This document shows, piece after piece, positions 3,023 through 62,064 of a stretch of DNA of 64,000 nt. The notes below the pieces were generated by a model, which worked only from the letters and a program-made list of their open reading frames with translations, had not been told where the DNA came from and did not search any database. The DNA is from Rhodocyclaceae bacterium (GTDB lineage Bacteria; Pseudomonadota; Gammaproteobacteria; Burkholderiales; Rhodocyclaceae), in contig VMSX01000011.1 in NCBI GenBank assembly GCA_013791905.1, positions 310,001-374,000 of the forward strand. The letters run 5' to 3'. A program made the translations under genes and the position numbers. The number at the start of each line of letters is the position of its first letter. Positions within the stretch are counted from its first letter, which is position 1.

Positions 3023-3046
3023 AAAGTCGGCGCTGGCGATACGGCG
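3023..3046 (+). repeat. Family A short repeat, intergenic
   Basis: Short form: begins AAAGTCGGCG and ends ACGGCG. It follows the phosphoesterase stop codon by 8 bp. Confidence 0.8.
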
Positions 3047-3070
3047 CGAAAAACCACCACACCAGCAGCT

Positions 3071-3218
3071 TTGCCGCCGGGCCGCCCCAAGGCAAGGCGG
3101 CACGCGGCGCCAGCCGCAACCCGCACCGATACGTGAACGGGTGTGCCCCATTAAAAACGAGAGTAGCGAGTCAACAGTCACCTCCCCCGCGAGGGGGGAG
3201 GCTGGGAGGGGGCGGGCT
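3071..3218 (+). repeat. Composite palindromic element (B+C), copy 1
   Basis: About 148 bp. The left part starts TTGCCGCCGGGCCGCCCCAAG; the right part is a near-palindrome CCTCCCCC/GGGGGGAGG followed by GGGAGGGGGCGGGC. The same arrangement recurs at 28123-28263 (inverted), 30308-30451 and, diverged, 33027-33127 (inverted). It fills the gap between two convergent genes and could act as a bidirectional terminator. Confidence 0.8.
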
Positions 3219-3222
3219 CTAC

Positions 3223-5157
3223 CTACGCTGCCTCGCGTCGCTCAGGGATGAGGGATGAACGTGGCACACCGCGGTTTTCCCCCATGTCGGAGAGCAGTTC
3301 CTTAATGTCGAGGATCAGCACGATCTGGCCGTTGGACAGCGTGGTGACGCCGGCCACGCCCTTTGGACGAAAGTCTTCGAGCGACTTGATCACGGCATCC
3401 TCGCGGCCCATGAAGCCGTCGATGGCCAGAATGAAGGCGTGATCGCCCGTCTGCATCAGTACGCCATATTCGGGCACCTGCACAGGTGTCCAACCAAGCA
3501 GATTGCAGATCGGATAGATCGGCATGACTTCGCCGCGCACCACCATCGTCGCGCGCCCGCCAACTTCCTGTACCTGTTCGATCTGGATTGGCAGAATCTC
3601 GCGCACCATTGAGAGCGGGACGGCAAATGGTTGCTCGCCCAGTTGCACCAGCAACACTGGCAGTATCGCCAAGGTCAGCGGCAACGATATGACAAAAGAA
3701 GTGCCCTTGCCGGGTGAGGACTTGATCTCGATGCTGCCGTTGAGCTTCTGGATGTTGGTTCTGACCACATCCATGCCGACGCCGCGGCCGGAAACGTCGG
3801 AGGCGACCTCCATGGTCGAGAAGCCGGGCAGAAACACCAGATTGAAACTCTGGCGCTCGTCCATGCTGTTGGCTTCTTCATCGGTGATGATGCCCTTCTC
3901 CAGTGCCTTGGCGCGCAACCGCTCGGCGTTCATGCCCTTGCCATCGTCGGCAACGATCAGCACGATGTGATCGCCCTCCTGACGCGCTTCAAGCCGTACT
4001 TGTGACTTTTCCGGCTTGCCGGCGGCGAGCCGTTCCTGAGTACTTTCGACACCGTGGTCGACTGCATTGCGGATCAAGTGAATGATCGGGTCGGAGAGAT
4101 CCTCAATCATGGTCTTGTCGATTTCGGTTTCTTCACCGACCAGCAGCAGTTCGACATCTTTGCCGAGGTTGCGCGCCAGATCGCGGGCAATGCGCGGATA
4201 TTTCTGGAACAGCCGGCCAATCGGCTGCATCCGCGTCTTCATCACCGCGTTTTGCAGATCAGATACCAGCAAATCAAGCTGGCTCACGGCCTGGTCGAGC
4301 GCATGCAGCGTGTCGGTATCGTTCCGTCCGTTGAGGATGTCGCTGCGGAGTGCGTTGAGGCGGTTTTTGGTAAGGCCGATCTCGCCTGAAAGATTGAGCA
4401 CCTGATCAAGACGCGAGGTATCCACACGAATCGAGTTGTCGCGGGATTTTTCGTTGTCGCGGCGTCCGACCGGAGCAGAGATGGCGCCTGGCTTGTCCGT
4501 AGCGCGCCGGCCGACGGCGTGCTGGATGATGGTTTCCGGCGCCTGACCTGCCACTTGGGTATGCATTGCCGGCACGGCCGGAGAAGTCGGCGCTGACTGG
4601 ATGAAATGCCCCGCAGCGGGTACGGCGGCAGGTGTGGCTGAAGCGGCGGGAACGCTGGCGACGGCACCATAGAGCTGGTTCCAGTCGAGGCCGGCAGTCA
4701 GCGCATCTGTCAGTGTTGGAGCGGAAACTACGGCAGCCATACTGGCAACAACGGGCTCTACCGGCTCGCCCGCCAGCGCGGCTTTGAGGTTGGCAATCAG
4801 ATTGGCATCGGCTGGCGGCGGCAGCACCCCATTGTCCAGATGCCCGAACATGTCGCGCACCGTCCCGGTAGCGGCCATGATGCTGTCCATGAGCTCCTTG
4901 GTCAGTGCCAATTCGCCATTGCGCAGCTTGTCGAAGAGATTTTCCGTCAGGTGGCAGAGCGTCACCAATTCGGCAGCGTTGAGAAAACCCGCGCCACCCT
5001 TGATGGTGTGAAAACCACGGAAAATATCATTCAGCAGACGATGATCCTGCGGATTCTTTTCCAGGTCCACCAACTTGTTGTCAACATCCGACAGCAAATC
5101 GGTGGCTTCAGTCAGGAAGTCCAGCAGCAGATCTTCCATACCGGCAAAATCACTCAT
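3223..5157 (-). CDS. cheA: Chemotaxis histidine kinase CheA (first copy)
   Basis: 644 residues. An N-terminal Hpt domain carries the phospho-accepting His50 in FHTIKGGAGFL. A proline/alanine-rich linker (about 135-235) precedes the P3 dimerisation helices, then the GHKL ATPase with N-box NAVDHGVES, the ADDGKGMN motif and [13 protein letters not shown], and finally the CheW-like P5 domain. No clear P2 CheY-binding domain is seen, so it is shorter than E. coli CheA. It is a cytoplasmic kinase that phosphorylates CheY and CheB under receptor control. It is the last gene of the che block, just downstream of cheZ. The linker contains a family A repeat read as VPAAGHFIQSAPTS. The stop abuts a composite repeat. 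Confidence 0.95.
   Translation of the reverse strand: MSDFAGMEDLLLDFLTEATDLLSDVDNKLVDLEKNPQDHRLLNDIFRGFHTIKGGAGFLNAAELVTLCHLTENLFDKLRNGELALTKELMDSIMAATGTVRDMFGHLDNGVLPPPADANLIANLKAALAGEPVEPVVASMAAVVSAPTLTDALTAGLDWNQLYGAVASVPAASATPAAVPAAGHFIQSAPTSPAVPAMHTQVAGQAPETIIQHAVGRRATDKPGAISAPVGRRDNEKSRDNSIRVDTSRLDQVLNLSGEIGLTKNRLNALRSDILNGRNDTDTLHALDQAVSQLDLLVSDLQNAVMKTRMQPIGRLFQKYPRIARDLARNLGKDVELLLVGEETEIDKTMIEDLSDPIIHLIRNAVDHGVESTQERLAAGKPEKSQVRLEARQEGDHIVLIVADDGKGMNAERLRAKALEKGIITDEEANSMDERQSFNLVFLPGFSTMEVASDVSGRGVGMDVVRTNIQKLNGSIEIKSSPGKGTSFVISLPLTLAILPVLLVQLGEQPFAVPLSMVREILPIQIEQVQEVGGRATMVVRGEVMPIYPICNLLGWTPVQVPEYGVLMQTGDHAFILAIDGFMGREDAVIKSLEDFRPKGVAGVTTLSNGQIVLILDIKELLSDMGENRGVPRSSLIPERREAA
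4584..4627 (+). repeat. Family A repeat inside cheA linker
   Basis: Form with the module ATGAAATGCCCCGCAGCGGG; 21 bp longer than the short form. Read in frame from the minus strand within the Hpt-P3 linker of the first cheA. Confidence 0.8.
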
Positions 5158-5208
5158 ATATTTCTCCTCATCCGGCGCTCACGGCCTTATCGATATCAAG
5201 ATACCGCA

Positions 5209-7491: not shown

Positions 7492-7504
7492 TTACAAATC
7501 TCCG

Positions 7505-8473: not shown

Positions 8474-8523
8474 TTGACCACCTTATTTGACCACCTTATT
8501 TGACCACCTTATTTGACCACTTT
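8472..8523 (-). repeat. Tandem 13-bp repeat carrying Shine-Dalgarno-like units
   Basis: Four head-to-tail 13-bp units (8472-8484, 8485-8497, 8498-8510, and 8511-8523 with one change), with a partial fifth. On the coding strand each unit is AAGGTGGTCAAAT; the last unit's final bases form the ATG of cheV. Confidence 0.95.
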
Positions 8524-8616
8524 ATTTGATCGCCATGGCGACAGTAAAGACTCATCGAACTTATCGAGCGAACGCCGTTACATCTAAAGACTTAAAAAAG
8601 GATATTACGCTATTCT

Positions 8617-11607: not shown

Positions 11608-12545
11608 GGCGTCGTCCCGGGCTTGGCACCACGACGGTCGGCACGCTCATAGACGGTACGCCCCAGCGAGCGAAACAGGTCGGTCGCATGCAGGAAACTC
11701 TCCGAATGGCCAGCATAGAGCAGCCCCTCAGGATGCAGCAAGGGCACGAATTTTTTGAGTATCTGGTATTGCGTGGGCTTGTCGAAGTAAATCATTACAT
11801 TGCGACAGAACAATACATCCAGCGGCCCCTTCACAGATGGCCACTGAGCATCGAGCAGGTTTATGCGACTGTAGGTGATCAGCTTTTGCAACTCGGGACG
11901 CACCCGCACTTGGCCAGCCTGCACACCCGCACCCTTGAGGAAGAATTTGCGCAGCCGCTCGGGGTCAAGCCGCTCGACCCGATCGATCGGGTACACACCG
12001 CTGGCGGCCGTCTTGAGTACATTGGTATCGATGTCACTGGCGTGAATCTGCACTGGTGGCGTCAGGCTGTTGAAGGCTTCACAGGCGGTAATCGCCAGCG
12101 AGTAGGGTTCTTCGCCAGTTGAGGCGGCGGAGCACCAGATCCTGATCGGCCGCTGCGGCAGACGGAGCAGATGCTTTTGCAGCATCTCGAAATGATGGCT
12201 TTCGCGGAAGAAAGAAGTGAGATTGGTCGTCAGAGAATTGACGAAAGTTTCCCACTCTGCGGCATGCCCCTGTTCGAGATAGGCCAGGTACTGGTCGAAA
12301 CTCGCCATGTTGAGCGCCCGCAAGCGCCTCGCCAGACGTGAATAGACCATATCCTGCTTGATCGGCGCGAGCGAAATGCCGGCATGCTTGTGAATGAGTT
12401 GCCGTACCCGGTCAAAATCCGCCACAGTGAACTGGAACTCGCGGCCAGCCCCGAGGCTGGATGGCAGAGCAACACTTGGCGCGGTTCCACCAGTCCCACT
12501 GGGATTGCCTGCGGTCATGCCGACTTTTCCTGAATTGGTTGTCAA
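11604..12545 (-). CDS. cheR: Chemotaxis receptor methyltransferase CheR
   Basis: Up to 313 residues. After a low-complexity N-terminal ~35 residues come the CheR N-domain ([38 protein letters not shown]) and the SAM-binding methyltransferase core ([42 protein letters not shown]). It methylates receptor glutamates. The start is unclear: a TTG at 12545 overlaps the receptor gene stop, while an ATG at 12518 falls inside the family A repeat (AGGA nine bases upstream). The N-terminal extension is encoded by that repeat ([16 protein letters not shown]). The upstream receptor carries a matching pentapeptide docking site. Confidence 0.94.
12480..12529 (-). repeat. Family A repeat at the cheR 5' end
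   Basis: Long form (24 bp longer than the short form) with the stem AATCCC/GGGACT. Read in frame as [16 protein letters not shown] and containing a possible cheR start codon. Confidence 0.8.
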
Positions 12546-15397
12546 AATTCGGCCCAGTCCTCATCATCGTCCGCCAGATAGGGTGGCGGCAGCTTTGAAC
12601 CTGCTGTCGCCGTCTTGTCAGCGCCGACTTTCTTTTCGCCGCTCACCAGACGCTTTGGCGTGACATCACGCAGTGCCGGTCCCGGCAGGTTGGTGCCACC
12701 TTCATGCAACTTGAACATGCCCACCGCCTGCACCAGTCCGTGCGCCTGCTCTTCCAGACTCTCGGCCGCCGCTGCCGCCTCTTCCACCAGCGCCGCGTTC
12801 CGTTGTGTCACCTCATCCATCTGGTTCATCGCCTGCGTTATCTGGTCAATGCCGCTCGACTGCTCGCGGCCGGCGTTGGTGATGTCCGTGACGAGCCGGG
12901 CAACCTGCTGGAAACTGCTGACGACTTCGTCCATGGTGCTGCCGGCCTCATTCACCAGACGGGCACCCACCTCGACCTTGTCGGCCGATTCGGCAATCAG
13001 CGCCTTGATTTCTTTTGCTGCCGTTGCGCTCTTCTGCGCCAGGTTGCGGACTTCGGCGGCCACCACCGCAAACCCCCGTCCCTGTTCGCCCGCGCGTGCT
13101 GCTTCGACCGCGGCATTCAGCGCCAGGATGTTGGTCTGAAAGGCGATGCTGTCGATCACGCCGATGATGTCGGATATTTTCTGCGCGCTGGTCTGAATGC
13201 CCGTCATGGTCGTAACCACCTGCCTGACGATCTGTCCGCCGCGCACGGCGATGGCATTGGAAACACTGGCCAGTTCGTTGGCCTGGCGCGCGCTTTCCGC
13301 ATTCTGCCTGACGGTACCGCTGAGTTCTTCCATCGAACTGGCTGTCTCTTCCAGGCTGCTGGCCTGTTCTTCGGTCCGCGAGGACAGATCCTGGTTCCCC
13401 GCCGCGATCTGCTGCGCCGCGATATTGATGGCTTCGGTCGCCTCCTGGATGCGACTGATAACATCCCGCAAGCGCTCGACCGTCGTGTTCGTGTCGTCTT
13501 TCAGCTGACCGAAGGTACCCTTGAAATTACCGGTCATGGTCTGGGTCAGATCGCCGCGCGACAGCGCACCCAGGACTGCGGCTACAGCGGACAAACCCGC
13601 CGCAGCCGTATCCAGCAACTGATTGAGCCCCGTCGACAGGTCGCGGAAGAAACCCGTCTTGCCTTCTAGCGCAAGACGGCGGGTAAAGTCGCCTTCGGCC
13701 GCGCCGCTGACGATCGACTCGACCTCAAGCTCCACCGCCACCTCGGCAGTGCGATCCTGCCATTCGGCGACCGTGCCCAGCCGCTCGTTTGCAGCGTTGA
13801 ACACCGGATTGAAAGTAACCGACAGGTGGCGTGTGCCAATGACCAGATCGGTCAAGTGCTTGCCAGCGAGATCGGCCAGCAGTCCGGTCTGATGCGACGG
13901 ATTTTTGTGGAAGCCATCGATATTCGCACCAATCAGCTGGTCGACATCGAAGTGCGGCAGTTGCGTGCGTATGTCTGTCTCGGCGTTCTTCAGGATCGCC
14001 TGCACCGACTTGTTGGCGTAGATGATGGTGCGCTCCGGGTTGACGATCATCACGCCGGTGCTGACGTTGTCCAGCGCGATCTTGATGCGTGTCATCGCGT
14101 CGGCCACGCGCCGGGTTTCGGCCATGTCGAAACCCAGCCGCGTCTGCATCGCCTGCAGGGCCTGGTTCAGCCTGCCCAGCTCGTCGTTGCGGGTGATGTC
14201 GATGGCGTTGTTGTAATTACCGCCCGCGATACCGTGAAAGGTATCGATGGCTGCCTGGATCGGACGACGGACACTGCCAATCAGGCGCACGGCGGCCAGC
14301 AAACCAATGACCAGCAAGGCCAGCAGCGCAGCAATCATGCCAATGAAGGCATTATGGTAGCGCTCCTCCGCATTGGCCATATCCAGCAGGGCGCGATCCT
14401 TGTGATATCCGAAGAGCCCTTCGGCCTTCCCGGCGGCGGCGTTATAGCCCGGGTTGACCTTCATCAATAAGAGCAGTTGGGCCTCGGAATAATTGCCATC
14501 CACTTGGGCCTGAAGCATGGGCACTTGCCCATTCAGCAAGTAAACCTTGCGCGCGGCGGCATATGCCTCCGCCAGGGCGCGGTGCTCGTCACCCAGAATG
14601 CTTTTCTGATATTCCTCCCACAAGGCCGTAGTTTCGGCGATGTTCCGGTGGACAACGTCAGTATGCAAGGTAATCGGATGATCATGCTCTTTGGAGAACG
14701 GATTAATCGGATCGTGCTGCAGGCCGAGCAAGAGTTGCGCGCGGCTGTCGGCCATCAGCGTATTGATGCGGCCGATGATGCGGATCGGTTCCAGATCATG
14801 ATTGAAAATCTGTTCCAGGCTGTCGTTGGTGCGCGACAAGGATAGCAGCGCATAGGCCATCACGGCAAAGACGATCAATCCGAGCCCGCCGAGCACCATG
14901 CCCATGCGGCCAGCCAGGTTGAGTCTGCTGAATATTCCCTCGCCACCGCTGACCACCTGCCCATAGCGGATTTTCAGCCCGCCCTGCTGCTTGTCGCGAA
15001 ACTTGCGATACATCGCCTCAGCAGCAGCGCTGTCGGCTGGCTCGGCCTTACGGCGTACCGATAAGTAGCCGGCGATCTGGCCGCCCTCCCAGAGCGGCGT
15101 CGTGTTCGTCAGCGCCCAGTAATAATCGCCGTTCTTGCAGCGGTTCTTGACAAGACCCACCCAGGGCCGCCCGGCCTTGAGCGTACGCCAGAGATCCGCG
15201 AAAACCTCGGCCGGCATGTCCGGGTGGCGCATGATGCTGTGCGCTTCGCCGATCAATTCGGCCTCGCTGTAGCCGCTGGTTTCCTGAAAGTCGCGATTGA
15301 CATAGGTGATGATTCCCTGCAGATCGGTCTTGGAGACGACCAGAGTATCGTCGGCGAGCTTCACCTCGTTATCGGTCACGGGCAGGTTGGTACGCAT
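12542..15397 (-). CDS. PAS-containing methyl-accepting chemotaxis protein with CheR-docking tail
   Basis: 951 residues. Order: an Aer-like PAS domain (about 15-130; [36 protein letters not shown]), a membrane helix (~180-200), a four-helix-bundle sensor segment in the periplasm, a second membrane helix (~345-370), HAMP, a second PAS-like segment ([18 protein letters not shown]), another HAMP-like region and the MA signalling domain with [22 protein letters not shown]. It ends in DWAEF, fitting the xWxxF pentapeptide that tethers CheR/CheB. The tail before it contains a family A repeat (KKVGADKTA). Known Aer-type PAS domains bind FAD and report on redox state; that role is inferred here. Its stop overlaps the start of cheR. 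Confidence 0.93.
12609..12632 (-). repeat. Family A repeat in the receptor tail
   Basis: Short form in coding orientation, read KVGADKTA, between the signalling domain and the terminal DWAEF pentapeptide. Confidence 0.75.
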
Positions 15398-15990: not shown

Positions 15991-18135
15991 TCAGGCAGCG
16001 GCCGGCAAGGCGCTGCGCGCCATGCTGACAAGCATTGAGACATCGAGAATCAACGCGACGCGGCCATCGCCCATGATGGTGGCGGCCGAAACGCCGGGTA
16101 CCTTGCGGTAGTTGGATTCAAGGCTTTTGATGACGACCTGGTGCTGGCCGACCATGGCGTCGACCAGCAGCGCGGCCTTCCTCCCGTCGGCTTCGAGGAT
16201 GATCATGATGCCCGCTTCAAAAGCAGTGGCAGCCCCGGGCACCCTGAATATCTCATGCAGGGCGACCACCGGCAGATATTCGTCGCGCACCTGGATCAGC
16301 TTTGCGACGCCCGCCACACTCTTGATCATGCTGCGCTCGACCTGCATCGATTCGATGACGTAGCCGAGCGGGACGATATACATCTCGCGGCCCACGGCGA
16401 CCGACATGCCGTCAAGAATGGCCAGGGTGAGCGGCAGCCGCACGGTCATGCGCGTGCCGATGCCGCTCATCGACTCGATCACCACGCGACCGCCCAGCGC
16501 GGCAATGTTGCGCCTGACGACATCCATGCCGACGCCGCGGCCGGAAACCTCGGTAACCGTTTCGGCGGTGGAAAACCCCGCCTCGAAGATGAGTTGAAAA
16601 ACTTCCTGGTCGCTCATTTGCTCATGCACGCCGCAACCGCGCTCTTTCGCCTTGGCGAGAATCCTGGCGCGGTTCAGTCCCGCCCCGTCGTCGCCGACTT
16701 CAATGACGACGTTGCCGCCCTGATGATAGGCTTTCAGCGTGATCGTGCCGACCGGCTGCTTACCCATGGCGGCCCGGACTGCGGGCGACTCGATGCCGTG
16801 ATCGAGGCTGTTTCTCACCAGATGGGTCAGTGGATCGGCGATGCGTTCAATGAGGTTCTTGTCGAGCTCGGTATCCTCGCCCGAAAGTTTCAGTTCGACC
16901 CGCTTGCCGAACTTTTGCGCGAGGTCATGCACCAGACGCGGGAAGCGCGCAAACACCACCGAGACCGGCAGCATGCGGATCGACATGACCGCTTCCTGCA
17001 GGTCGCGGGTATTGCGTTCGAGCTGAACCATGCCGTTATGCAGCCGCTCGAATTCGGCAGGATCGAGTTGCGCGGTCGATTGCATCAGCATCGCCTGCGT
17101 GATGACGAGTTCGCCAACCAAATTGATAAGCTGGTCAACCTTGTCCACGCCAACACGAATGGTGGCGTCGGCGGCAGCGGCAGCCGCTTTCGTCACAAGG
17201 GTTGGCACAGCTTCCGGCGTTGCCGCGACAGGCAGTGGCGGCAGCGGCTCGAAAAATCCATAGGCCTCCTCTACGATGGGCAGCGTGGCCGGCACGGCGG
17301 GCTGTGCAGCGCTGACCAAACTATCAGCCAAAGGCTCAAAAAAACCGTAGGCCGCGGCGGGAGAGTCGAGCAGCGCGGCAGCGGAAAGGCTCAGAGGCTC
17401 GATGCGGATACTGTCGCTGCGGGCGACAAATTCGAGAAGGGCACGCAGTGTCGTGATGTCGGCAGCGCCAAGCAAGCGGAGATGCCAGGGTTGGCCGGCA
17501 GACGCAGCACCTTCGACGATACGCACTTCGCCAAGGCCACCCAACTCCGTCAGCAGATTGTCGATCAGGCGTTCCGCACTGTCAGCGTCGCCAGCAAGCA
17601 CAAAATATAACTCGCAACCTGTCGCGGCAAGCGCGGGCGGCGTCCCGCTTCCGGCAATGGTCGGCGTGACCGGAGGGAATCCCCCGGGGACTGGCGGGAC
17701 GGAGTGCCCCGCAGCGGGTACCGCGCCAGGCGGAGGGGCGCAGGCACTTTCTCCAGACAACGCACTCAAACGCTGGCAAATCAGCGCCGCTGCCGCGAGA
17801 TCTGCCACGCCACTACCTTGATGGGCCGCCAGCATTCCCTGCAACACATCTCGCGCATCCAGAAAGACGGCGATCATTTCCTCGTTCAGCCGGAGCTTGC
17901 TTTTGCGGATGCGATCGAGCAGATTTTCGAGGATGTGAGTCACCTCGGCCAGGTCGTTGAAACCGAAGGTACCGGAGGAGCCCTTGATGGAATGCGCTGC
18001 ACGGAAAACGGCATTGAGCTGTTCGGGGTCGGGTGCAGCGACATCCAGCGTGAGCAGCAGATTTTCCAGTGTCGCCAGGTGTTCTCCAGTCTCTTCAAAA
18101 AAGATCTGGTGAAACTGGCTCATGTCGATGGCCAT
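15991..18135 (-). CDS. cheA: Chemotaxis histidine kinase CheA (second copy)
   Basis: 714 residues. The Hpt domain has His48 ([16 protein letters not shown]). A linker carrying a family A repeat ([20 protein letters not shown]) leads to a small alpha/beta domain (~175-250; [24 protein letters not shown]) that may be a P2-like regulatory domain. Next comes a second linker with the motif AYGFFEPL written twice, then P3, the GHKL ATPase ([31 protein letters not shown]) and the CheW-like P5 domain. It is longer than the other CheA, which is 11 kb away in the same block. An excellent Shine-Dalgarno (AAGGAGG) precedes it. Confidence 0.95.
17659..17724 (+). repeat. Family A repeat, double-module form, in cheA linker
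   Basis: The longest variant: it contains both the AATCCC/GGGACT module and the GTGCCCCGCAGCGGG module, 45 bp more than the short form, that is 24 plus 21. Read in frame on the minus strand. Confidence 0.8.
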
Positions 18136-19569: not shown

Positions 19570-19615
19570 AAAAGTCGGCGTTGGCGGGATGAAATGCCCC
19601 GTAGCGGGTACGGCG
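19570..19615 (+). repeat. Family A repeat between motA and motB
   Basis: The +21 form with ATGAAATGCCCCGTAGCGGG, lying in the 102-bp gap and 22 bp upstream of the motB start. Confidence 0.8.
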
Positions 19616-24448: not shown

Positions 24449-25303
24449 CTACTCTTCAACCTCGAACACCACTGGCAGCGACACCGCGAAGCTTTGTCCA
24501 CGCAAGGACTCGGGCAACACGACCCGCGTTACCGCCTGCCGCAACATCTCCAGCGCCGCCGCATCGAGAACGGCATAACCGCTGGACCGGCTCAGGTCGA
24601 CTCGGCGCACCGGCAACCCCGTCTCTATTGTGACCCGCACTTCGGCGGTGCCGGCCAAACCATCGCGCCGGGCCACCTCGGGGTAACGGCGGAAGCGCCG
24701 CGCCTCAACTGCCAGCGCCATGCGGAACTGCCGCAATCCGGCGGCATTTGCGCCACGCTCATCGGCCTCTTTCGCAAGGGCAACCGTAGCCGGGCCGGAT
24801 GTGGCGCGCGACACGACACCACCCGGAGTTTCGCTGGCGATTGCCCGGGTTTTGTTCGGAACTGACGGCTGGGCAAAAGTCGGCGTGACCGAAGGAAATC
24901 CCTGTGGGACTGGCGGTACGGCGATAGCCGGTACCGCCGCGTGGGATTGGACGGCATTAGCTGCTGCCGGTTGCGTTGGCGCAGGATCAGGCTGAGGTTT
25001 TTGCGTGGCTGCAACATCAGCCTCGTGCACCGGGCTTGGCGGGGTTGCAACCACCGGTGCCGGGGATAAATCACGCTGCAAAATCGCCGCAGGCTCAGCG
25101 GCTGCAACTGAAACAGGAGGCGTCCCGGGCAGCAATACACCGCGCAGGATACTGGCGGGCGGCAAACTGAATTCCGCTGGAGCAAACTGCGGCGCCAGCC
25201 CCAGCAACACCAGCGCGTGCAGGAACAATGACAAAAGCACGGGGCGCAACGGAAATCCCCGCAAATACCGGGTCTTTTCCTGCTGCCAAGACGAACTTTC
25301 CAT
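24449..25303 (-). CDS. TonB-family energy transducer
   Basis: 284 residues from ATG at 25303 (MESSSWQQEKTRYLRGF). One N-terminal membrane helix (~18-37, PVLLSLFLHALVLLGLAPQF) leads to a long proline/alanine-rich periplasmic spacer and a C-terminal TonB domain (RYPEVARRDGLAGTAEVRVTIETG, ALEMLRQAVTRVVLP). It transmits proton motive force to outer-membrane receptors. The spacer includes a family A repeat read as VPPVPQGFPSVTPTF. A much longer in-frame ORF reaching 26338 runs through unrelated genes; I reject it. The neighbouring exbBD genes are not in the window. Confidence 0.9.
   Translation of the reverse strand: MESSSWQQEKTRYLRGFPLRPVLLSLFLHALVLLGLAPQFAPAEFSLPPASILRGVLLPGTPPVSVAAAEPAAILQRDLSPAPVVATPPSPVHEADVAATQKPQPDPAPTQPAAANAVQSHAAVPAIAVPPVPQGFPSVTPTFAQPSVPNKTRAIASETPGGVVSRATSGPATVALAKEADERGANAAGLRQFRMALAVEARRFRRYPEVARRDGLAGTAEVRVTIETGLPVRRVDLSRSSGYAVLDAAALEMLRQAVTRVVLPESLRGQSFAVSLPVVFEVEE
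24875..24923 (+). repeat. Family A repeat in the tonB spacer
   Basis: Long (+24) form; after it GGTAC/GTACC arms form another stem. Read in frame on the minus strand. Confidence 0.8.
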
Positions 25304-26790: not shown

Positions 26791-28156
26791 CCTGAGGGCG
26801 CGGCTGATCGCCGGCGTGGTCGGCCTCGTCACGGTCATCTGGCTCGGCGTGACGCTGGCCGCCTGGCTCGAGACCCGCCATGAGACCGAGGAAATCCTCG
26901 ACGCCCACCTGGCCCAGGCGGCGGCGCTGTTGACCGCCTTCGTCGGCCACGAAGCCGACGAACTCGACGAACATCTGCCGACCAACCGTTACCTGCACAA
27001 GGTGACATTCCAGGTCTGGGACGGTGGACGCAAGTTGCTCGTCCATTCCGCCAACGCACCCGATCATCGGCTGTCCGCCAGCGACCACGGCTTCTCCGAT
27101 GCCAGTTTCGACGGTGACCGCTGGCGCGTTTTCAGCCAGTGGAGCGACGATGGCCGCTATCTCGTCCAGGTCGGCGAAACCTTCGATGTGCGGGACGACA
27201 TTTCGCGCGAACTCGCCGGCCACCTGCTGGCGCCACTTGCCGTCGCCCTGCCACTGCTGGCGCTCGGGCTGGCGCTGCTGATCGGTCGCGGCCTGCGGCC
27301 ACTGTCCACCCTGGCCGACGACATTGGCCGCCGCGATGCCAACCGTCTTGACCAGGTCGATACGGCGCGCGCACCCAGCGAACTCAAGCCCGTGCTCGAC
27401 CGGCTCAACCAGCTGTTCGCGCGCCTGAGCCGTTCGATCGAGCTTGAACGCCGCTTCACCGCCGACACCGCCCACGAGCTGCGCACCCCGCTGGCAGCCA
27501 TGCGCACCCATGCCCAAGTGGCACAAGGGGCAACCTCGGTTGATGAACGTGAGGCCGCCATTTCCCATGTCATCGAGGCTACCGACCGCGCCACTCATCT
27601 GCTCGAACAATTGCTGACGCTGGCACGTCTCGACGCCCCTGCGGCCAGCCAGTCGTTTGTCGCCTGCGACCTGCGCCAGATTGCCCGCACCGTGTTGGCC
27701 GCCGCCGCACCGGCAGCATTACTCAAGCAGATCGAAGTTGAGCTCGTCGAAGGGCCCAGCGTTGCCGTACCCGGCGACCCGACGCTGCTCGGCGTGCTGT
27801 TGCGCAACCTCATCGACAATGCCGTGCGTTACAGCCCGCCAAAAGTCGGCGTTGGCGTGACGGCGGGCCTTACCGCAGCCGGAGAACCCTTCGTTGCAGT
27901 CAGCGACCAAGGTCCCGGTATTCCACCCGCCGAGCGCAGTCGCGTCCTCGACCGCTTCCACCGCATCGCCGGTAGCGGTGCTTCCGGCTCCGGCCTGGGC
28001 CTGTCGATTGTCGCGCGCATCGCCGAGTTGCACGGCGCCCGCCTTGAGCTCGACAGCAGCCCCGACGGTAAAGGCCTTGGCGCGCGCGTGGTGTTTTCGT
28101 CGCGCGGTTCCACAGTTAAAGACCGCCCCTCCCAACCTCCCCGCGCGGGGAGGTGA
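26783..28156 (+). CDS. Sensor histidine kinase (QseC-like)
   Basis: 457 residues from GTG at 26783 (MNSLRARLIAGVV). Two membrane helices (~7-30 and ~150-172) flank a periplasmic domain of ~120 residues. A HAMP region precedes the dimerisation helix with phospho-accepting His in DTAHELRTPLAAM, then the ATPase with NAVRYSP (N-box), DQGPGIPPAER and GSGLGLSIV. A family A repeat (KVGVGVTA) is inserted between NAVRYSPP and GEPFVAVSDQG, at a beta-hairpin. The C-terminus (DRPSQPPRAGR) and the stop come from a composite repeat. Whether the kinase is still active needs testing. Confidence 0.92.
   Translation: MNSLRARLIAGVVGLVTVIWLGVTLAAWLETRHETEEILDAHLAQAAALLTAFVGHEADELDEHLPTNRYLHKVTFQVWDGGRKLLVHSANAPDHRLSASDHGFSDASFDGDRWRVFSQWSDDGRYLVQVGETFDVRDDISRELAGHLLAPLAVALPLLALGLALLIGRGLRPLSTLADDIGRRDANRLDQVDTARAPSELKPVLDRLNQLFARLSRSIELERRFTADTAHELRTPLAAMRTHAQVAQGATSVDEREAAISHVIEATDRATHLLEQLLTLARLDAPAASQSFVACDLRQIARTVLAAAAPAALLKQIEVELVEGPSVAVPGDPTLLGVLLRNLIDNAVRYSPPKVGVGVTAGLTAAGEPFVAVSDQGPGIPPAERSRVLDRFHRIAGSGASGSGLGLSIVARIAELHGARLELDSSPDGKGLGARVVFSSRGSTVKDRPSQPPRAGR
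27841..27865 (+). repeat. Family A repeat inside the histidine kinase ATPase domain
   Basis: Short form, 25 bp including AAAAGTCGGCG, read in frame as KVGVGVTA just after the N-box. Confidence 0.8.
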
Positions 28157-28263
28157 CGGATGCTCGCTACGCTCGATTGTTACGGGGCGCGTTGTTGTAG
28201 CCGTGGCGCGGATTGCGGCTAGCGCCGCATGCCGCCCTGCCTTGGTGCGGCCCGGCGGCAAGG
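28123..28263 (-). repeat. Composite palindromic element (B+C), copy 2
   Basis: Inverted copy between the histidine kinase and ygiQ. It contains a perfect 18-bp palindrome (half CCTCCCCGC). It provides the last codons and the TGA of the kinase gene. Confidence 0.85.
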
Positions 28264-28292
28264 CTGCATTCGTGGTGAGTTAAGATGCGGAG

Positions 28293-30395
28293 ATGAACGC
28301 TCCGCTCCCCCTGTCCCAGCCTGCCCGCCTGCTCTCCGCCTACAAGCCCTACTGGGCCAAACGCTTCGGCATTGCGCCCTATCTGCCCATGTCGCGCGCG
28401 GAGATGGATCAACTCGGCTGGGACGAATGCGACATCATCCTCGTCACCGGCGATGCCTACATCGACCATCCCAGCTTCGGCATGGCGCTGGTCGGTCGCC
28501 TGCTCGAAGCGCAGGGCTTTCGCGTCGGCATCATCAGCCAGCCGGACTGGACCTCGGCTGACGATTTTCGCCGTCTCGGCCGGCCCGCGCTGTTTTTCGG
28601 CATCACCGCCGGCAACATGGATTCGATGGTCAATCGCTACACCGCCGACCGCAAGATCCGCTCCGATGACGCCTACACGCCCGACGCTGCGCCCAACAAG
28701 CGCCCCGATCACGCCGTCACCGTGTATGCCCAGCGCGCGCGCGAAGCCTTCCGCGACGTCCCGGTGGTGATTGGCGGCATCGAGGCCTCCCTGCGCCGCA
28801 TTGCGCACTACGACTACTGGTCGGATACGGTGCGCCGCTCAGTGCTGGTCGACAGCAAGGCCGATCTGCTGCTGTTCGGTAATGCCGAACGTGCGCTGGT
28901 GGAACTCGCGCATCGCCTCGCCAGGGGCGAAAAGATCAGTGCCATGCGCGACCTGCGCGGCAGCGCCTTCATGGCGCCGACCGACTGGAAACCGGATGAG
29001 AGCTGGGCGGAAATAGATTCAAGCACCGTGCAGGATGCAAAAGTCGGCGCCGGCGGGACAGCGATCCCGATCCAGTTTCACCCGCGCCGCGCGCGCAGCC
29101 AGACCGTGATCCGTTTGCCGTCCTACGAAGCGGTAAAAGCCGATCCAATACTGTATGCCCACACTTCGCGGATTTTCCACCTTGAATCGAACCCCGGCAA
29201 TGCGCGCGCGCTAGTGCAGTGTCATGGCAAGCGCGATCTGTGGCTCAACCCGCCACCCTTGCCGCTATCCACCCCCGAGATGGATTACGTTTTCGGCCTG
29301 CCCTACGCCCGCGCCCCGCATCCGGCCTACGGCGACGCCAAAATTCCGGCGTGGGAGATGATCCGCTTCTCGATCAACATCATGCGCGGCTGCTTTGGCG
29401 GCTGCACCTTCTGTTCGATCACCGAACACGAGGGGCGCATCATCCAGAGCCGCTCGGAAGAATCGATCCTGCGCGAGATCGAGGAAATCCGCGACAAGAC
29501 ACCGGGCTTCACCGGCGTCGTGTCGGACCTGGGCGGCCCGACGGCGAACATGTACCGCATGGCCTGCAAGGACGTAAAAATCGAAGCGGCCTGCCGACGG
29601 CTGTCCTGCGTTTATCCGGACATCTGCCCGAACCTCGACACCAGCCACGCCCCGCTGATCTCGCTTTATCGCAATGCGCGCAAGATTCCGGGCATCAAGA
29701 AGGTGCTGATCAGTTCGGGCCTGCGCTACGACCTGGCGGTGCGCTCCCCCGAATACGTCAAGGAACTGGTCAGCCACCATGTCGGTGGTTATCTGAAGAT
29801 CGCGCCGGAGCACACCGAAGAAGGTCCGCTGTCGAAGATGATGAAACCCGGCATGGGTGCCTACGACAAGTTCAAGCGCATGTTCGACGCCGCCTCGCAG
29901 GCCGCCGGCAAGGAACAGTATCTGATTCCCTATTTCATCGCCGCGCATCCGGGTACGACCGATACCGACATGCTCGAACTTGCGCTATGGCTCAAGCGCA
30001 ACAACTTCCGCCTCGACCAGGTGCAGACCTTCCTGCCGACGCCGCTGGCGATCGCCACCGGCATGTGGCACACCGGCAAGAATCCGTTGAAGCGCGTCTC
30101 GGCGACTTCAGAGGACGTTGCCGTCGTGCGCGGCGGCCGCCAGCGCAAACTGCACAAGGCTTTTTTGCGCTATCACGATCCGAAGAACTGGCCGCTCCTG
30201 CGTGAGGCGCTCAATGCCATGGGACGCGCCGATCTGATCGGCAACGGCAAGAAACACCTGATCCCTGCGTGGCAGCCGGGTGGAGAAAAAATCGGATACC
30301 ACCGCAGCCTTGCCGCCGGGCCGCCCCAAGGCAAGGCGGCACGCGGCGCCAGCCGCAACCCGCGCAACAGCCAAAAAAAAGCGCCCCATAACTAA
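28293..30395 (+). CDS. ygiQ: YgiQ-family radical SAM protein
   Basis: 700 residues of the YgiQ/UPF0313 family. N-terminal cobalamin-like or Rossmann part ([28 protein letters not shown]), then the radical SAM cluster motif CFGGCTFC in [19 protein letters not shown], and the family's [18 protein letters not shown]. The substrate is not known. A short insertion [13 protein letters not shown] (residues ~248-260) is encoded by a family A repeat, and the tail after [11 protein letters not shown] ([16 protein letters not shown] and on) is encoded by a composite repeat, so the protein is about 35 residues longer than its ancestor was. The ATG (28293) is preceded by only GCGGAG, right at the edge of a composite repeat. 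Confidence 0.92.
29039..29063 (+). repeat. Family A repeat inside ygiQ
   Basis: Short form, read KVGAGGTA, in a variable segment before the radical SAM domain. Confidence 0.8.
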
Positions 30396-30451: not shown

Positions 30452-30455
30452 TTTA

Positions 30456-41169: not shown

Positions 41170-43163
41170 GACGCCGTCCCGCCGGCGCCGACTTTCGCCT
41201 GGCCTCTTGCCGCCGCCACGTCGCTTGCGACACCCTGCGCGAGATGCACCCAATCCACAATCTCGCCACTCGGATGATAGCCAGGCACCAATTGTTCGAG
41301 CATGCCCCGCATCACGGGCACATCATTCACGTCCAGTGCAACGCGTAGCGCCGCGAGCTTTTCTTCCAGCTCGGCCCACGGCAAGCATTCGTCGCGTGCC
41401 TTCATGATGCGCGGATGGGAAGTCGGCTCCGGGTTGTCGCCAATCAGCAGTTCTTCGTAAAGCTTTTCACCGGGTCGCAAGCCGATGATCCGGATTTCAA
41501 TATCGCCCTCCGGGTAATCCGCATCCTGCACCGCCAGGCCGGAGAGTTCGATCATGCGCCGCGCCAGATTGATGATTTTGACCGGCTCACCCATATCGAG
41601 GACGAATACATCGCCTCCTTTGCCCATCGCTCCGGCCTGGATCACCAGTTGCGCCGCCTCGGGAATGGTCATGAAATAGCGGGTGATCTCGGGGTGAGTC
41701 AACGTGATGGGTCCGCCATCCTTGATCTGCTGCCGGAACTTCGGCACCACCGAGCCGGAAGAACCCAGCACATTGCCGAAGCGCACCATCGAAAAGCGCG
41801 TCCCATCATGCTGTCCGGCTGCATTGGCACTGAGCGCCTGCAGCACCAGCTCGGCCAGCCGCTTGCTCGCACCCATGACATTGGTCGGCCGCACCGCCTT
41901 GTCGGTGCTGATCAGCACAAAATTTGCCACGCCCTGTTGCTGCGCCACCCGGGCCACGGTCAGCGTACCGAACACATTGTTAATGATGCCCTCGGCCGGG
42001 TTGTGCTCGACCAGCGGCACATGCTTGTAGGCGGCGGCGTGATAGACGGTATGCGGGTGCCAGGCTGCCATGATTTCGCGCATGCGCGCAGCATCGCGCA
42101 CCGAGGCCAGCAAAGGCACCAGCCGTGATTCATCTGCCGCCATCGCCGGCAACAACTCTTGATGCAATGCATACAGGGCGAATTCGCTCTGCTCGACCAG
42201 CAACAAGGATGCCGGGCCGAGCTTGATGATCTGACGACACAGTTCGCTGCCGATCGAACCGCCGGCTCCGGTCACCAGCACGACCTTGCCGCAAATATCC
42301 TGGCCCAGCAGGACCGGGTCAGGCGGCACGGGCACCCGTCCCAGCAAATCATCGAGCTCCAGTTCGTGCAAATCCGTGGTGCTCACCCGGCCGTGCGCCA
42401 GATCCGTCACACTCGGCAGGGTGCGCACGGACACATGGGCCGGCAGTATCTGCTTCAATATCTCATTGCGGCGCCGTCGCCCGGCCGAAGGGATAGCCAG
42501 CAACACATCCCTGATCCCCAGCGACTCGACCAGGGCAGATAGATCATCCGGCTTGTAGATGGTCAGGCCATTCAAGGAATTGCCCTGCAAACGCGCGTCA
42601 TCGTCGAGAAAACCCACCACCCGCATTTCCTGGCTGTTGGCGAGCGCCGCAGCCAATTGGCTGCCCGCATTGCCGGCGCCGTAAATCAGGGCCTTGGGCA
42701 AGTCGCTGCGTTTGAGATAACTCTGATAAAGCCCGCCCAGCCAATAACGGGCAAACGCACGCGAAGCACCCACCGCCAGCAGCAGCAGCAACGGCTGGAT
42801 CAGGCCGACCGTGCGCGGCACACCCGGCACGCCCACAGCAGTAAATACTGCGGCGTACAACAGGCCGTAAATCACGATTGCCCGCGTCACCGCCATCAAG
42901 GCTTGCCAGCCGGCATAACGGAAGATCGCTCGATACAGGCCGGAGACAATGAAAGCCGGCAAGGCAAGCACCAAGGCGCCTGCCACGGCCAGTTCGGCAG
43001 ACCAGACAGGATCTCCGGACAGCGCCACCCACTCCCCCAGGCGCAAATAAAAAGCCAGCCAGACCGTGAGCACGCATAAGCTTGCATCGACGCTCAATGC
43101 CAGCAGGCGCTTCATCACCCGCGGCAGTGCCAGCATCGGCACGGCAACTTTAGGAAAGGACAT
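41166..43163 (-). CDS. WbpM/CapD-like UDP-sugar 4,6-dehydratase
   Basis: 665 residues from ATG at 43163 ([21 protein letters not shown]), at which the gene overlaps the upstream transferase by 14 bp. Four N-terminal membrane helices (~25-140) precede a small Rossmann domain ([17 protein letters not shown]) and the main SDR domain ([31 protein letters not shown]). The catalytic segment [17 protein letters not shown] has Met in place of the usual Tyr, as in the WbpM group. It makes UDP-4-keto-6-deoxy-GlcNAc, the precursor for FucNAc or QuiNAc. The last residues, [10 protein letters not shown], come from a family A repeat. The stop overlaps the convergent stop of moaC. Confidence 0.93.
41172..41195 (-). 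repeat. Family A repeat at the 3' end of the wbpM-like gene
   Basis: Short form, coding orientation, read KVGAGGTA, ending one codon before the stop. Confidence 0.8.
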
Positions 43164-44112: not shown

Positions 44113-45104
44113 CGCAGCATCTCCCTGACGCCTTCAGCCAAACCAATCTTCGCCCGCCAGCCCAATTCCCCCTGTATCCGCGCCGGGGAATAGCAAGCCG
44201 AATCGAGCAAACGGGATACGACCTCGGAACTCAGGGGCAAAGGGCGGCGCAGCAGCATCCCAAGCGCATCGCCAACCTTGCCCCCACCGCGCAGCAAACC
44301 CACCGGCACGCTCCAGCGCAAAGTCGGCGTGACCGAAGGAAATCCCCATTTCGGGACTGGCGAGATGGCGTCACGCGTATTGACGTATATGGCATCGTAT
44401 ATCTGCCGTCCAGAATAAGCTTGCGGATCAGCCACGATATAGGTCCTGCCGTTTGCCGCCGGCGCATCAGCCACTAAACGCATGGCGGCCACCACGTCAC
44501 TCACATGCACCAGCGAACGCCGGTTGCCCGTCTCGGGCAAGGGCGGAAACCAGCCGGTGCGAATGCCGCGCGCCATGCGTTCCAGATTGCCCCGCCCGCC
44601 ACGGCCATAAACCATTGCCAGCCGCAGATTGACCACATGCATGCCAATTTTCGCGCCCGCTTCTAGCACCGCATCTTCCGCCGCCCGCTTGGCGCGACCG
44701 TAAGGCGTGGCCGGCTCGCCCGGCCAATCCTCATCGACACACTCGTCGCCCGGCTCGGCCATCGCCTTGACACTGGAAAGAAACACGAAACACCGCACCC
44801 CCGCCGCGCCGGCGGCAGCCAGCAGATTGCGCGTGCCTTCGAAATTGATGCGCCAATGGGCATCGGGATCGGACGAAGCAAACGCATGCGCGTAACCGGC
44901 GCAGTGGAAGATGGTGTCGACGCCTGCGCAGGCTTCCATAAGCGATGCGGAATCGAGAAGATCGCCGACGACGCTATCAGGATTGTTGCTGGCAGTTCGC
45001 GCCAGCGCGCGGTCGCCGGGGCGAAGCAATCGCCGACCGATAAACCCACGTGCACCCGCCACCAATGTTTTCCCGGAAGAATTGGCTTCGTTTCGAAATT
45101 TCAT
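44109..45104 (-). CDS. NAD-dependent epimerase/reductase (WbpV-like)
   Basis: 331 residues of the extended SDR type: GARGFIGRRLLRPGD, YAHAFASSDPDAHWRINFEGT, and the active-site Tyr-x-x-x-Lys in TPYGRAKRAAED. It most likely reduces or epimerises UDP-4-keto-6-deoxy-HexNAc made by the WbpM-like enzyme. It overlaps the next gene by four bases. The segment PVPKWGFPSVTPTLR (~residues 249-263) comes from a family A repeat. Confidence 0.9.
   Translation of the reverse strand: MKFRNEANSSGKTLVAGARGFIGRRLLRPGDRALARTASNNPDSVVGDLLDSASLMEACAGVDTIFHCAGYAHAFASSDPDAHWRINFEGTRNLLAAAGAAGVRCFVFLSSVKAMAEPGDECVDEDWPGEPATPYGRAKRAAEDAVLEAGAKIGMHVVNLRLAMVYGRGGRGNLERMARGIRTGWFPPLPETGNRRSLVHVSDVVAAMRLVADAPAANGRTYIVADPQAYSGRQIYDAIYVNTRDAISPVPKWGFPSVTPTLRWSVPVGLLRGGGKVGDALGMLLRRPLPLSSEVVSRLLDSACYSPARIQGELGWRAKIGLAEGVREMLR
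44320..44370 (+). repeat. Family A repeat inside the WbpV-like gene
   Basis: Long (+27) form: the AATCCC/GGGACT stem carries a 6-base loop instead of 3. Read in frame in antisense orientation. Confidence 0.8.
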
Positions 45105-45993: not shown

Positions 45994-46017
45994 AAAGTCG
46001 GCGCTAGCAGGACGGCG
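45994..46017 (+). repeat. Family A repeat between the two toxin-antitoxin modules
   Basis: Short form with two changes (CTAGCAGGACGG in place of CTGGCGGGACGG). Confidence 0.75.
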
Positions 46018-55637: not shown

Positions 55638-55661
55638 AAAGTCGGCGCTGGCGGGACGGCG
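55638..55661 (+). repeat. Family A repeat with inverted partner
   Basis: Short form. Immediately left of it AGCGCCGGCTTTC (55624-55636) is the start of another copy in the opposite orientation, giving a head-to-head pair with a single mismatch. Confidence 0.8.
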
Positions 55662-60252: not shown

Positions 60253-61016
60253 TTTTTCCAGGGTGCCTTGCCCGTAGCCCAGAGGTCTTCGAGCAGATTT
60301 TTTTCGCGCAGGGTGTCCATGGGTTGCCAGAAACCATCGTGCTCAAACGCCATCAGTTGCCCGTCTGCCGCCAGCCGGGTCAGTGGCTCACCTTCCCAAC
60401 TGGATTGGTCGCCCGCGATCTGGTTTATGCACTTGGGCGAAAGCACAAAGAATCCACCATTGATAAGACCGCCATCACCCCGTGGCTTCTCGGTGAAGCC
60501 AGCCACCCTGTCGCCCTCCATTTGCAAAGCGCCGTAGCGCCCAGGCGGTTGAACAGCGGTAACGGTCGCCAGCTTGCCATGCTGCTTGTGGAAGGCAATC
60601 TCGCGCGAAATATCCACATCCGACACGCCATCGCCGTAGGTGAAACAAAACGCTTCTTCGTCCTGGACGTATTCCGCAACCCGCCTCAGACGCCCTCCGG
60701 TGAGCGTCTCTTCACCGGTATCCACCAGTGTCACGCGCCATGGTTCAGCCTTCTGCTGATGGACTTCCATCCTGTTGTGCTCCATGTCGAATGTGACGTC
60801 CGACATGTGCAGAAAATAGTTGGCGAAGTATTCCTTGATGACGTAGCCCTTGTAGCCACAACAGATCACGAAATCATGAACTCCATGCGCGGAATACAGC
60901 TTCATGATGTGCCAGAGAATGGGCTTGCCACCAATCTCGATCATCGGCTTTGGCTTGAGATGGGTTTCCTCGGAAATACGAGTGCCGAGACCACCCGCCA
61001 GAATCACGGCCTTCAT
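60243..61016 (-). CDS. rfbF: Glucose-1-phosphate cytidylyltransferase
   Basis: 257 residues: the nucleotidyltransferase start [41 protein letters not shown] and [15 protein letters not shown] are those of RfbF. Makes CDP-glucose from CTP and glucose-1-phosphate, the entry to the CDP-deoxysugar branch. Overlaps the fcl stop by four bases. Confidence 0.95.
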
Positions 61017-61999
61017 ATATGGTTCTCCATGCTCCTATAAATCTGATACGCCAGAGCCAAGCCCATCTCCAATGAGGTTATTGGCTGCCACCCCAGATTT
61101 TGTAGGCGCCGAATATTCAGCAACTTCCTCGGTGACCCGTCGGGTTGGGTTGGATCAAATTCGATTGTGCCTGCATAGCCGACGACTTTCCTCACCGTCT
61201 CGGCCAGTTCCTTGATGGTGAGGTCTTCTCCTACGCCGATATTCACAACTGGCGGCATAAAGATGCCCGTCCTGGCTTCGTCGCTGCCCAGCAGGGTCTG
61301 ATAATTCTCGTCCGGCAGATTCATCAGGAAGACGCAGGCGTCGGCCATGTCGTCGCTGTAGAGGAATTCGCGCCTTGGGGTACCGGTGCCCCAGACGGTG
61401 ACGGTCGCGGCGTTCGCCACCTTAGCTTCGTGGAACTTGCGGATCAGTGCCGGGATGACGTGGCTGTTTTCGGGGTGGTAGTTATCGCCGGGACCGTAGA
61501 GGTTGGTGGGCATTACCGCAAGGTATTGGGTGCCGTATTGCCGGTTGTAGCTCCAGCACATTTCGATGCCGGCGATCTTGGCCAGGGCGTAGGGGCGATT
61601 GGTGGGTTCGAGCGGGCCGGTGAGCAGGTATTCCTCTTTCATCGGCTGCGGGGCGAGCTTGGGGTAGATGCAACTGGAGCCCAGGAACATCAGGCGCTTG
61701 ACCTGGCTCTGCCAGGCGGCGTGGATGATGTTGGTCTGGATGGCGAGGTTGTCGCGGATGAATTCGGCGGGGTATTCGTTGTTGGCGTGGATGCCCCCGA
61801 CCTTGGCGGCGGCGAGAAAAACGTAGTCGGGCTTTTCCCGTGCAAAGAATGCTTCGACGTCGGCCTGGCGGGTCAGATCGAGTTCCGGGTGGGTGCGGGT
61901 CAGCAGGTTAGTGTAGCCCTTGGCCTGCAGATTGCGCATGAGGGCGGAACCGACGAGGCCGCGGTGGCCGGCGATGTAGATGCGGGAGTCAGGTTTCAA
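61013..61999 (-). CDS. fcl: GDP-L-fucose synthase (first paralogue)
   Basis: 328 residues from a TTG at 61999 ([22 protein letters not shown]), with an upstream alternative TTG at 62020; no ATG is available near the family start because the region upstream is tandem CAAGG repeat DNA. SDR motifs GHRGLVGSA, Tyr-x-x-x-Lys in [11 protein letters not shown], and [27 protein letters not shown]. Follows gmd. The 3' end overlaps rfbF. Confidence 0.92.
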
Positions 62000-62036
62000 G
62001 GAACAAGGCTCAAGTTGCAAGGTTCAAGGCTCAAGA
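61996..62036 (-). repeat. Tandem CAAGG/CAAGGCTCAAG repeat
   Basis: Imperfect units of CAAGGNNCAAGGCTCAAG occur between fcl and gmd; the fcl start codon lies in it. Confidence 0.75.
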
Positions 62037-62039
62037 TGC

Positions 62040-62064
62040 AAAAGTCGGCGCTGGCGGGACGGCA
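62040..62064 (+). repeat. Family A repeat between gmd and fcl
   Basis: Short form; it ends just before the gmd stop codon at 62066. Confidence 0.8.

Follow-up and report, generated by a model that had tools for sequence, protein, structure and literature searches.

A dispersed 24-bp motif of Rhodocyclaceae with local dialects and in-frame inner modules, a possible uptake-sequence-like label

The stretch analyzed here, 64,000 nucleotides of a Rhodocyclaceae bacterium (GenBank assembly GCA_013791905.1, contig VMSX01000011.1, positions 310,001 to 374,000, forward strand; hereafter the window), carries 15 copies of a short repeat, 10 of them in open reading frames (ORFs) and 5 between genes. According to Pfam, the ORFs with copies encode CheA1, CheR, a methyl-accepting chemotaxis protein (MCP) with PAS domains, CheA2, TonB, a histidine kinase, YgiQ, a VWA protein, and WbpM-like and WbpV-like proteins. 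The last two names are those of a preliminary description of this DNA (Pfam: Polysacc_synt_2 and Epimerase, respectively), and YgiQ is our name for a Radical_SAM_N protein; the CheR copy is genic only if an upstream TTG start is used. The repeat consists of a 24-bp core, which may be an uptake-sequence-like label, and of two inner modules, A and B, that are found in some of the copies.

The core reads AAAGTCGGCG-CTGGCGG-GACGGCG, with two conserved boxes at a fixed spacing, and is by eye not an obvious palindrome. Its 24 positions are sharply bounded, the information content being near zero outside them except for a purine at position -1. In the window, AAAGTCGGCG has 24 matches with at most one mismatch, 12 of them exact, as compared to 5.6 expected, and 0 of 100 shuffles get to 24. 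The pattern AAAGTCGGCG-N7-GACGGCG, allowing two mismatches, has 538 matches in the whole genome, split equally between the orientations (273 and 265), and its reversed version has 1. The motif is also among the top over-represented 10-mers and 12-mers of our sample of this genome (G000), from which the own-genome statistics below are taken. The sample consists of stretches totalling 854 kb of 3.64 Mb; genes were called by a home-made script, with no annotation pipeline (the tonB start was missed), and the copy finder permits few lengths besides 24, 45, 48, 51, 66, 69, and 72. We found 151 copies in it, namely 123 short (24 bp), 12 with module A (48 or 51 bp), 13 with module B (45 bp, or 66 bp with the module twice), and 3 with both (69 or 72 bp). 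Sites with 0 to 6 mismatches number 29, 39, 42, 16, 16, 12, and 7, respectively, as compared to 0, 0, 0, 0, 0, 0, and 2 for the reversed motif.

The preliminary description had reported at least 15 copies, ten of them in genes, of a modular family that occurs in either orientation and is translated as part of proteins; these statements are borne out. The start and end letters that it gave need correction in places: the copy at 4583 starts GAAGTCGGCG, those at 17657 and 12480 are degenerate, and several ends differ (GATACGGCG, GACAGCG, GACGGCA). Its rule that all size steps are multiples of three holds for the 15 window copies (24, 45, 48, 51, or 69 bp), while a looser scan of the genome gives exceptions, for example a full-ended 44-bp copy at C1:302516, one whose middle is longer by 12 bp (C1:124607), and one that is shorter by 3 bp (C1:9640).

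The copies are depleted in genes (83 of 151, with 86% of the DNA coding, P 4e-20) and spaced more evenly than by chance. Gaps below 1 kb make up 6.8% as compared to 16.2% in simulations (reached in 0 of 2000), the coefficient of variation of the spacing is 0.82 as compared to 0.98 (P 0.0075), and the mean gap is 5.6 kb; only one close inverted pair, 8 bp apart, occurs among the 151 copies. The largest element-free gaps were considered as acquired islands, which was rejected on finding no clear mobile DNA in 20 proteins scanned; one gap of 32 kb has a GC content of 0.571 with transporter and kinase genes, and another holds leuA, ilvC, and lptF/G-type genes. As for the reading frames, all five same-strand copies of the window are in frame 0 (KVG...TA) and all five opposite-strand copies in one other frame (AVP or AIS ... 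PT), as previously described. This preference is weaker in the sample, where the 74 short genic copies are distributed 37/0/9 on the same strand and 10/0/18 on the opposite strand, so that two of six frames are nearly unused; at up to five mismatches, one copy is in a fifth frame. Weak background matches in genes follow broadly the same order (276/85/115 and 199/40/165).

Modules A (24 or 27 bp) and B (21 bp) are hairpin-like and are present or absent as exact units between relatives. For example, tonB shows an in-frame difference of 24 nt (A form in our genome, short form in G008) and ygiQ one of 21 nt (B form in G008, short form in ours); outside gene calls, C1:15641 differs from L043 by exactly 27 nt, and the motA-motB spacer shows a 21-nt difference, module B being present only in our genome and G012 among 10 carriers. 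Frame-preserving gain and loss at shared sites, as judged from these alignments, is a property of modules A and B only. In the sample, 20 of 25 matches to module A have a left box within 60 nt (two of the other five resemble, by eye, a portion of the ~155-bp repeat described below), and 17 of 36 matches to module B have a left box, most of the others looking like weak chance matches. A module is carried less often by copies in genes (9 of 83) than by copies elsewhere (19 of 68, P 0.011). It had been proposed, from the preservation of the frame, that the element is selected to pass through proteins, with random length differences outside genes as the opposing outcome. Modular copies outside genes are divisible by three as well, which makes divisibility a property of the modules and removes it as evidence of such selection.

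Other additions were observed beside the element. The YgiQ protein of G008 (L221 near 9576) has, besides module B, an extra insertion of ~27 residues just upstream of the element. In G002 and G017, a 54-nt addition recurs upstream of short copies (L239, L246, L252, L257, L235, L199), once in tandem, and by eye it looks like two motifs paired in inverted, imperfect form. Another family of repeats, ~155 bp long, lies beside or inside the 24-bp element at C1:120247 and C4:90426 of our genome and is found in the window at about 3060-3217, 28118-28267, and 30304-30453; G000, G008, G009, and G015 have many copies and G010 at least one.

Table 1. Copies of the repeat in the window, with one related site that is not a copy
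Position	Strand	Form	Place and remarks
3023..3046	+	Short, 24 bp	Between genes
4583..4627	+	B, 45 bp	cheA1, between Hpt and dimerization domains; antisense, reads AVPAAGHFIQSAPT
12480..12527	-	Degenerate A, 48 bp	cheR N-terminus (TTG start) or just upstream; own gene call begins downstream
12608..12631	-	Short	Near C-terminus of MCP with PAS/HAMP domains; reads KVGADKTA
17657..17725	+	Degenerate A+B, 69 bp	cheA2, between Hpt and dimerization domains; antisense
19571..19615	+	B, 45 bp	motA-motB spacer; element there in 10 of 12 genus genomes compared
24876..24923	+	A, 48 bp	tonB, antisense; relative G008 has short form at same place
27842..27865	+	Short	Inside HATPase_c domain of histidine kinase; KVGVGVTA
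29040..29063	+	Short	Length-variable loop inside Radical_SAM_N of YgiQ; KVGAGGTA; G008 has B form
32173..32196	+	Short	VWA-domain protein, antisense; AVPPAPTF
41172..41195	-	Short	Last codons of WbpM-like gene (KVGAGGTAS, then stop); in G014 after stop
44320..44370	+	A, 51 bp	WbpV-like epimerase, antisense
45994..46017	+	Short	Between genes
55638..55661	+	Short, exact consensus	Between genes
62041..62064	+	Short	Short gap between two genes
34418..34441	+		Not a copy: own counterpart of a motif-like colinear 24-mer in G015, G008, and G016; 306-aa gene 33965-34885 with CxxCxxCC domain

The core itself behaves differently. The preliminary description regarded the element as inserted into proteins and suggested comparing related genomes for empty sites; such comparisons support this view for the modules, with indels of 21, 24, and 27 nt, and lend it no support for the core at the sites compared. 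We screened for absences using elements with at most one mismatch to a dialect-tolerant motif and flanks at least 70% identical. The screen gave 34 pairs, from 15 query elements, in which the finder saw no element in the relative, 19 of them with zero length difference. Not counted as absences were L188:7735, L239:18154, and L189 and L205 against G016/G000, where the element is present and was missed, L221:11513 and L248:16322, which are module differences, and also the ambiguous L249:256 and L195:11940.

Six coding sites with an element-free relative, all in gene calls or long open frames, are colinear with zero length difference. At window position 34418, eight genomes align without gaps; by hand count, the distance to the G000 consensus is 4 mismatches for G015 and 5 for G008, and G016 differs at 4 positions from its own dialect. 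The distance is at least 9 mismatches for G000, G009, G010, G012, and G017. At window position 39387, G012 (L227:13087) has a full match and our genome an unlike 24-mer of equal length, in a gene. The third gapless absence of the screen is L254:2033, and the other gapless sites are C1:134548 (2 mismatches) and C1:136834 (4) of our genome, both compared with L090, and L136:1969 (4 mismatches) compared with L135. A clean 24-nt empty site was found in none of the comparisons of absent elements with relatives. With six colinear coding sites and no clean 24-nt gap, the view of the core as an insert jumping into genes is not supported. The other absences, mostly in spacers or at gene ends, show irregular differences (-38, -37, -11, -8, +1, +9, +107, -1, +6, and -42), and the YgiQ loop varies in length among genomes, the loop of G006, without the motif, being only slightly shorter than that of G012. 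Positions are largely retained at the sites that could be compared between our genome and G008. Of the finder hits (163 in ours and 95 in G008, weak ones included), 12 in each genome were mappable by both flanks, and the other genome also has an element at 12 of 12 and 11 of 12 of these sites, respectively.

The motif has dialects, described from 2 to 148 copies per genome, with more than 10 only in G000, G002, G012, G016, G017, and G028. The G000 dialect is AAAGTC..GACGGCG, which G008, G009, G010, and G015 resemble (2 to 9 copies each). The dialect of G002 and G017 ends GACGGCAC, with A at position 24 in 70 of 79 copies as compared to 9 of 148 in G000 (P 2e-38, computed with one G002 copy counted twice), and that of G016 is AAACTC...GGCGGCG, with C at position 4 in 11 of 13 copies (5 of 148 in G000) and G at position 19 in 12 of 13 (10 of 148; P ~1e-11 each). 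In G028, from another genus, a k-mer search without any prior motif brought up AAAGTCAGTC, and most of the 16 sites located via AAAGTCAG read AAAGTCAGTC-N6-GGACGGCG or near it, again 24 bp. The dialects of G004, G005, G007, and G012 are read from few or mixed copies, the motA-motB spacer site among them.

At sites shared between genomes, the local dialect is followed. This was seen in the motA-motB spacer (a copy in 10 of 12 genomes), at window position 34418 (G016 as compared to G015 and G008), at C1:72235 of our genome (G002 and G017 as compared to G000), and, by eye, in the cheA1 linker, where several relatives have short or degenerate forms. Species dialects with concerted change across sites are found, on about four shared sites. 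The same positions have changed at old shared sites, which is hard to expect of vertically inherited dead inserts and points to something that reads the DNA. The copy of the WbpM-like gene, which is translated in our genome and follows the stop codon in G014, keeps its position and not its reading, and this also points to a constraint on the DNA.

We counted the motif at one mismatch in other genomes. In the genus (19 genomes including our own), 18 genomes have 60 to 550 copies and G006 has 1; in the 18 genomes searched from the rest of the family, the counts are 334 and 561 for two and 0 to 4 for the others; and 24 genomes of the wider order have 0 to 4 each. With a looser pattern, 25 of 199 family genomes, from eight genera, have at least 10 copies, and the control never exceeds 4 per genome. 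The exact pattern occurs in at least 80 named contigs, and among the matches listed 64 of 80 are titled Rhodocyclaceae, Rhodocyclales, Sulfuritalea, Sulfurisoma, or Propionivibrio. One contig of Sulfurisoma sediminicola BSN1 holds an exact match, so a cultured carrier appears to exist. G006 (1 copy) and G194 (3 copies) are members of carrier genera, nearly free of the motif, that retain ComEC; the system may have been lost naturally in both.

Point-mutation origin, coding depletion, even spread, orientation bias, and dialects have all been reported for uptake sequences, and for this reason we prefer to see the 24-bp core as an uptake-sequence-like motif. Passages of PMC7811141 describe the uptake signal sequences (USS) of Pasteurellaceae as evolving by point mutation, "not inserted elements," and as underrepresented in coding sequence; even spread is described in passages of PMC7811141 and PMC1939737, orientation bias within genes in parts of PMC2346458, and dialects in parts of PMC3630211. 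The DNA uptake sequences (DUS) of Neisseriaceae, according to sections of PMC3630211 and PMC2346458, likewise have many copies, both orientations, intragenic sites in permissive regions, and species dialects with a conserved core. The reverse of the DUS (TTCAGACGGCAT) and the end of the G002/G017 dialect have GACGGCA in common, as judged by eye. However, DUS are 10-12 bp long with thousands per genome in several species, while our motif has 24 bp, the mean gap given above, and inner modules, and its recognition is a proposal drawn from sequence. USS and the motif both start AAAGT (by eye) and, judging from passages of PMC7811141, share coding depletion and a relatively even spread; the point mutation in place of insertion described for USS may apply to the motif as well. 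USS differ in having a core of 9-10 bp (AAAGTGCGGT) and belong to another family. We know of no nested modules in USS.

In our estimate there is about an even chance that the 24-bp core is a DNA-level label for a trans-acting protein, which would most likely read it during the DNA uptake of transformation. The recognizing protein would presumably take part in the uptake step of natural transformation; DNA coming in with a better copy would have the advantage and take the place of the resident allele, so that copies may accumulate by point changes (molecular drive) where these are tolerated, in spacers, gene ends, linkers, and loops. Genic copies would then lie in reading frames yielding harmless residues, and when the specificity of the recognizing protein shifts, the sites would drift to a new dialect. 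The modules, as hairpin-like inserts of 21-27 bp, may spread among existing copies, probably via recombination between them. In the open-access literature we found no report of an uptake sequence in Rhodocyclaceae, and no title on this motif among the listed matches to two of its 10-mers; passages of PMC7811141 and PMC1939737 name Pasteurellaceae and Neisseriaceae as families with uptake sequences. More tentatively, we put forward a third, independently evolved uptake-sequence system in Rhodocyclaceae: a two-box 24-bp label with genus- or species-level dialects in at least eight genera, plus a parasitic layer of in-frame 21-27 bp hairpin modules that are nearly confined to the label and make proteins longer on entering genic copies.

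Several observations weigh against an uptake-sequence-like label. The case for substitution comes down to six sites, three of them with weak copies (4 or 5 mismatches). In the absence screen, one site (window position 34418, seen from three genomes) makes up 15 of the 19 pairs of equal length, and 2 more are elements that the finder missed. In 110 pairs within the genus, the 24 bp are not better conserved than their flanks (0.76 as compared to 0.81, P 0.22), and the halo that a gradual origin would predict is small past 6 mismatches (48 as compared to 39 sites at 7, and 182 as compared to 191 at 8). The shared cross-dialect sites are few, about four, and some dialects rest on few copies including the site itself. 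The largest element-free gaps showed no clear mobile DNA (none among 20 proteins scanned), and lone exact-consensus copies in distant genera, like the copies in phage contigs, also fit mobility or gene transfer. All 24 genomes searched for ComEC have it, and 37 of 41 have a ComP_DUS-type pilin, whether or not they carry the motif, so neither discriminates: ComEC is also present in the element-poor G006 and G194, and the pilin is present in G006 and G023 and was not found in the carriers G012 and G015 (76% and 83% complete). Searches for ComEC and ComP_DUS thus revealed no gene that tracks the motif. The motif has about double the length of a DUS, and to our knowledge uptake sequences do not contain nested modules.

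The main rival is a binding site of a chromosomal protein (for nucleoid organization, segregation, or replication control), of which a few hundred evenly spaced sites would be selected, with dialects following the specificity of the protein. The even spacing, the two conserved boxes, the dialects, the positional conservation, and the equal use of orientations would all suit such a site; we nevertheless consider it unlikely, as close genomes do without the motif (G006, of the same genus, and G194, with the single copy and three copies given above, respectively), presence in phage contigs would be odd, and no chromosomal site of such length and number is known to us. A very small mobile element, comparable to the small dispersed repeats (SDR) of Nostoc, seems rather improbable. 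In that case, old insertions in many genes and spacers would have been inherited vertically, with modules added later, as the sharp 24-bp boundaries, the exact module indels, the low-copy exact matches in distant genera and phages, and the spacer and gene-end sites lacking both the element and its flank, with their irregular length differences, could suggest. It would be at odds with the colinear replacement in genes and the missing clean 24-nt empty site, the local dialect at shared sites, the small turnover between G000 and G008, the over-dispersed spacing, and the lack of a correlated Y1 transposase. Nostoc SDR have a similar size (21-27 bp) and are found in genes, but they are mobile with empty sites, of which we found no clean case. 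Rickettsia palindromic elements, to which the repeat had been likened, are longer, palindromic inserts; both are read inside proteins, but the core here is colinear with element-free homologs, and insertion applies only to modules A and B, which are in-frame additions.

A REP-associated transposase had also been suggested as the mobilizing enzyme. A search limited to Y1_Tnp among the transposase families gave no hit in 14 of the 19 genomes of the genus, among them G011 (99% complete, 550 copies) and G017 (one contig, 170 copies). As it was not found in most carriers, mobilization of the type known for repetitive extragenic palindromic (REP) sequences and their REP-associated tyrosine transposases (RAYTs) was rejected. 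REP/REPIN sequences are likewise short and dispersed, with hundreds of copies, but according to passages of PMC3116915 REPs are extragenic palindromes tied to RAYTs, while here more than half of the sampled copies (83 of 151) lie in genes, and the presence of Y1_Tnp does not follow that of the motif.

Phages bear on a further possibility, that of a short homology patch that needs no recognizing protein and that recombination between copies, through phage annealing proteins for instance, would spread and homogenize. The motif occurs in 71 stretches of viral contigs; one phage has it within a gene, and the joints between related phage genes fall at the motif. Alignments of viral loci stop at the element edge in 116 of 209 cases as compared to 33 of 272 control positions, leaving out the class that ends just before (62 and 59), and the left box lies near 20 of the 25 module-A matches. 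Even so, we regard a mere homology patch as very unlikely: the even spacing would be unexplained, the viral contigs are partly duplicates, so that independent events are fewer than the counts, and on the chromosome breaks are not commoner at elements (21 of 67 in genes as compared to 124 of 415 controls, and 29 of 53 in spacers as compared to 127 of 200). Without an excess of breaks over matched controls, a role at chromosomal synteny breakpoints was likewise rejected. Phage mosaics joined at the element, together with no chromosomal excess, leave room for a role as a recombination patch in phages. The relatives found for an empty-site comparison in phages were themselves mosaics joined at the element, and no empty site was readable. 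In viral loci, 50 of 107 copies lie within 1.5 kb of the locus end, the locus ends not always being contig ends, and host flanks at these ends are possible. An insertion sequence bounded by inverted copies was considered for the viral contigs L365, L392, and L400 and rejected; the ORFs of the segment are small and phage-like, and all three contigs seem to represent one phage. In these contigs and in L408-L414, phage-like small genes are separated by candidate integron attC sites (by eye), and there are mosaic genes with their joints at the 24-bp element.

Other repeats were noted in passing. The window has a tandem repeat of about five ATTTGACCACCTT units at 8472-8536, and its positions 61322-61837 and 63462-63977 are 74-77% identical over ~500 bases, probably as a tandem gene duplication. 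In G023 (L265, ~600-830), a tandem array has a 15-bp unit, GGGACAGCTCCCACA, with 13 matches.

The inner modules show clearly how a small piece of DNA can add or remove 7-9 residues in protein genes while the frame stays intact. If the 24-bp core is indeed an uptake-sequence-like label, Rhodocyclaceae would be a third family with such a system, this time among environmental bacteria. Having several dialects within a single genus, and possibly natural losses in G006 and G194, it would open the question of drive versus benefit, and that of the recognizing protein, to tests by comparison.

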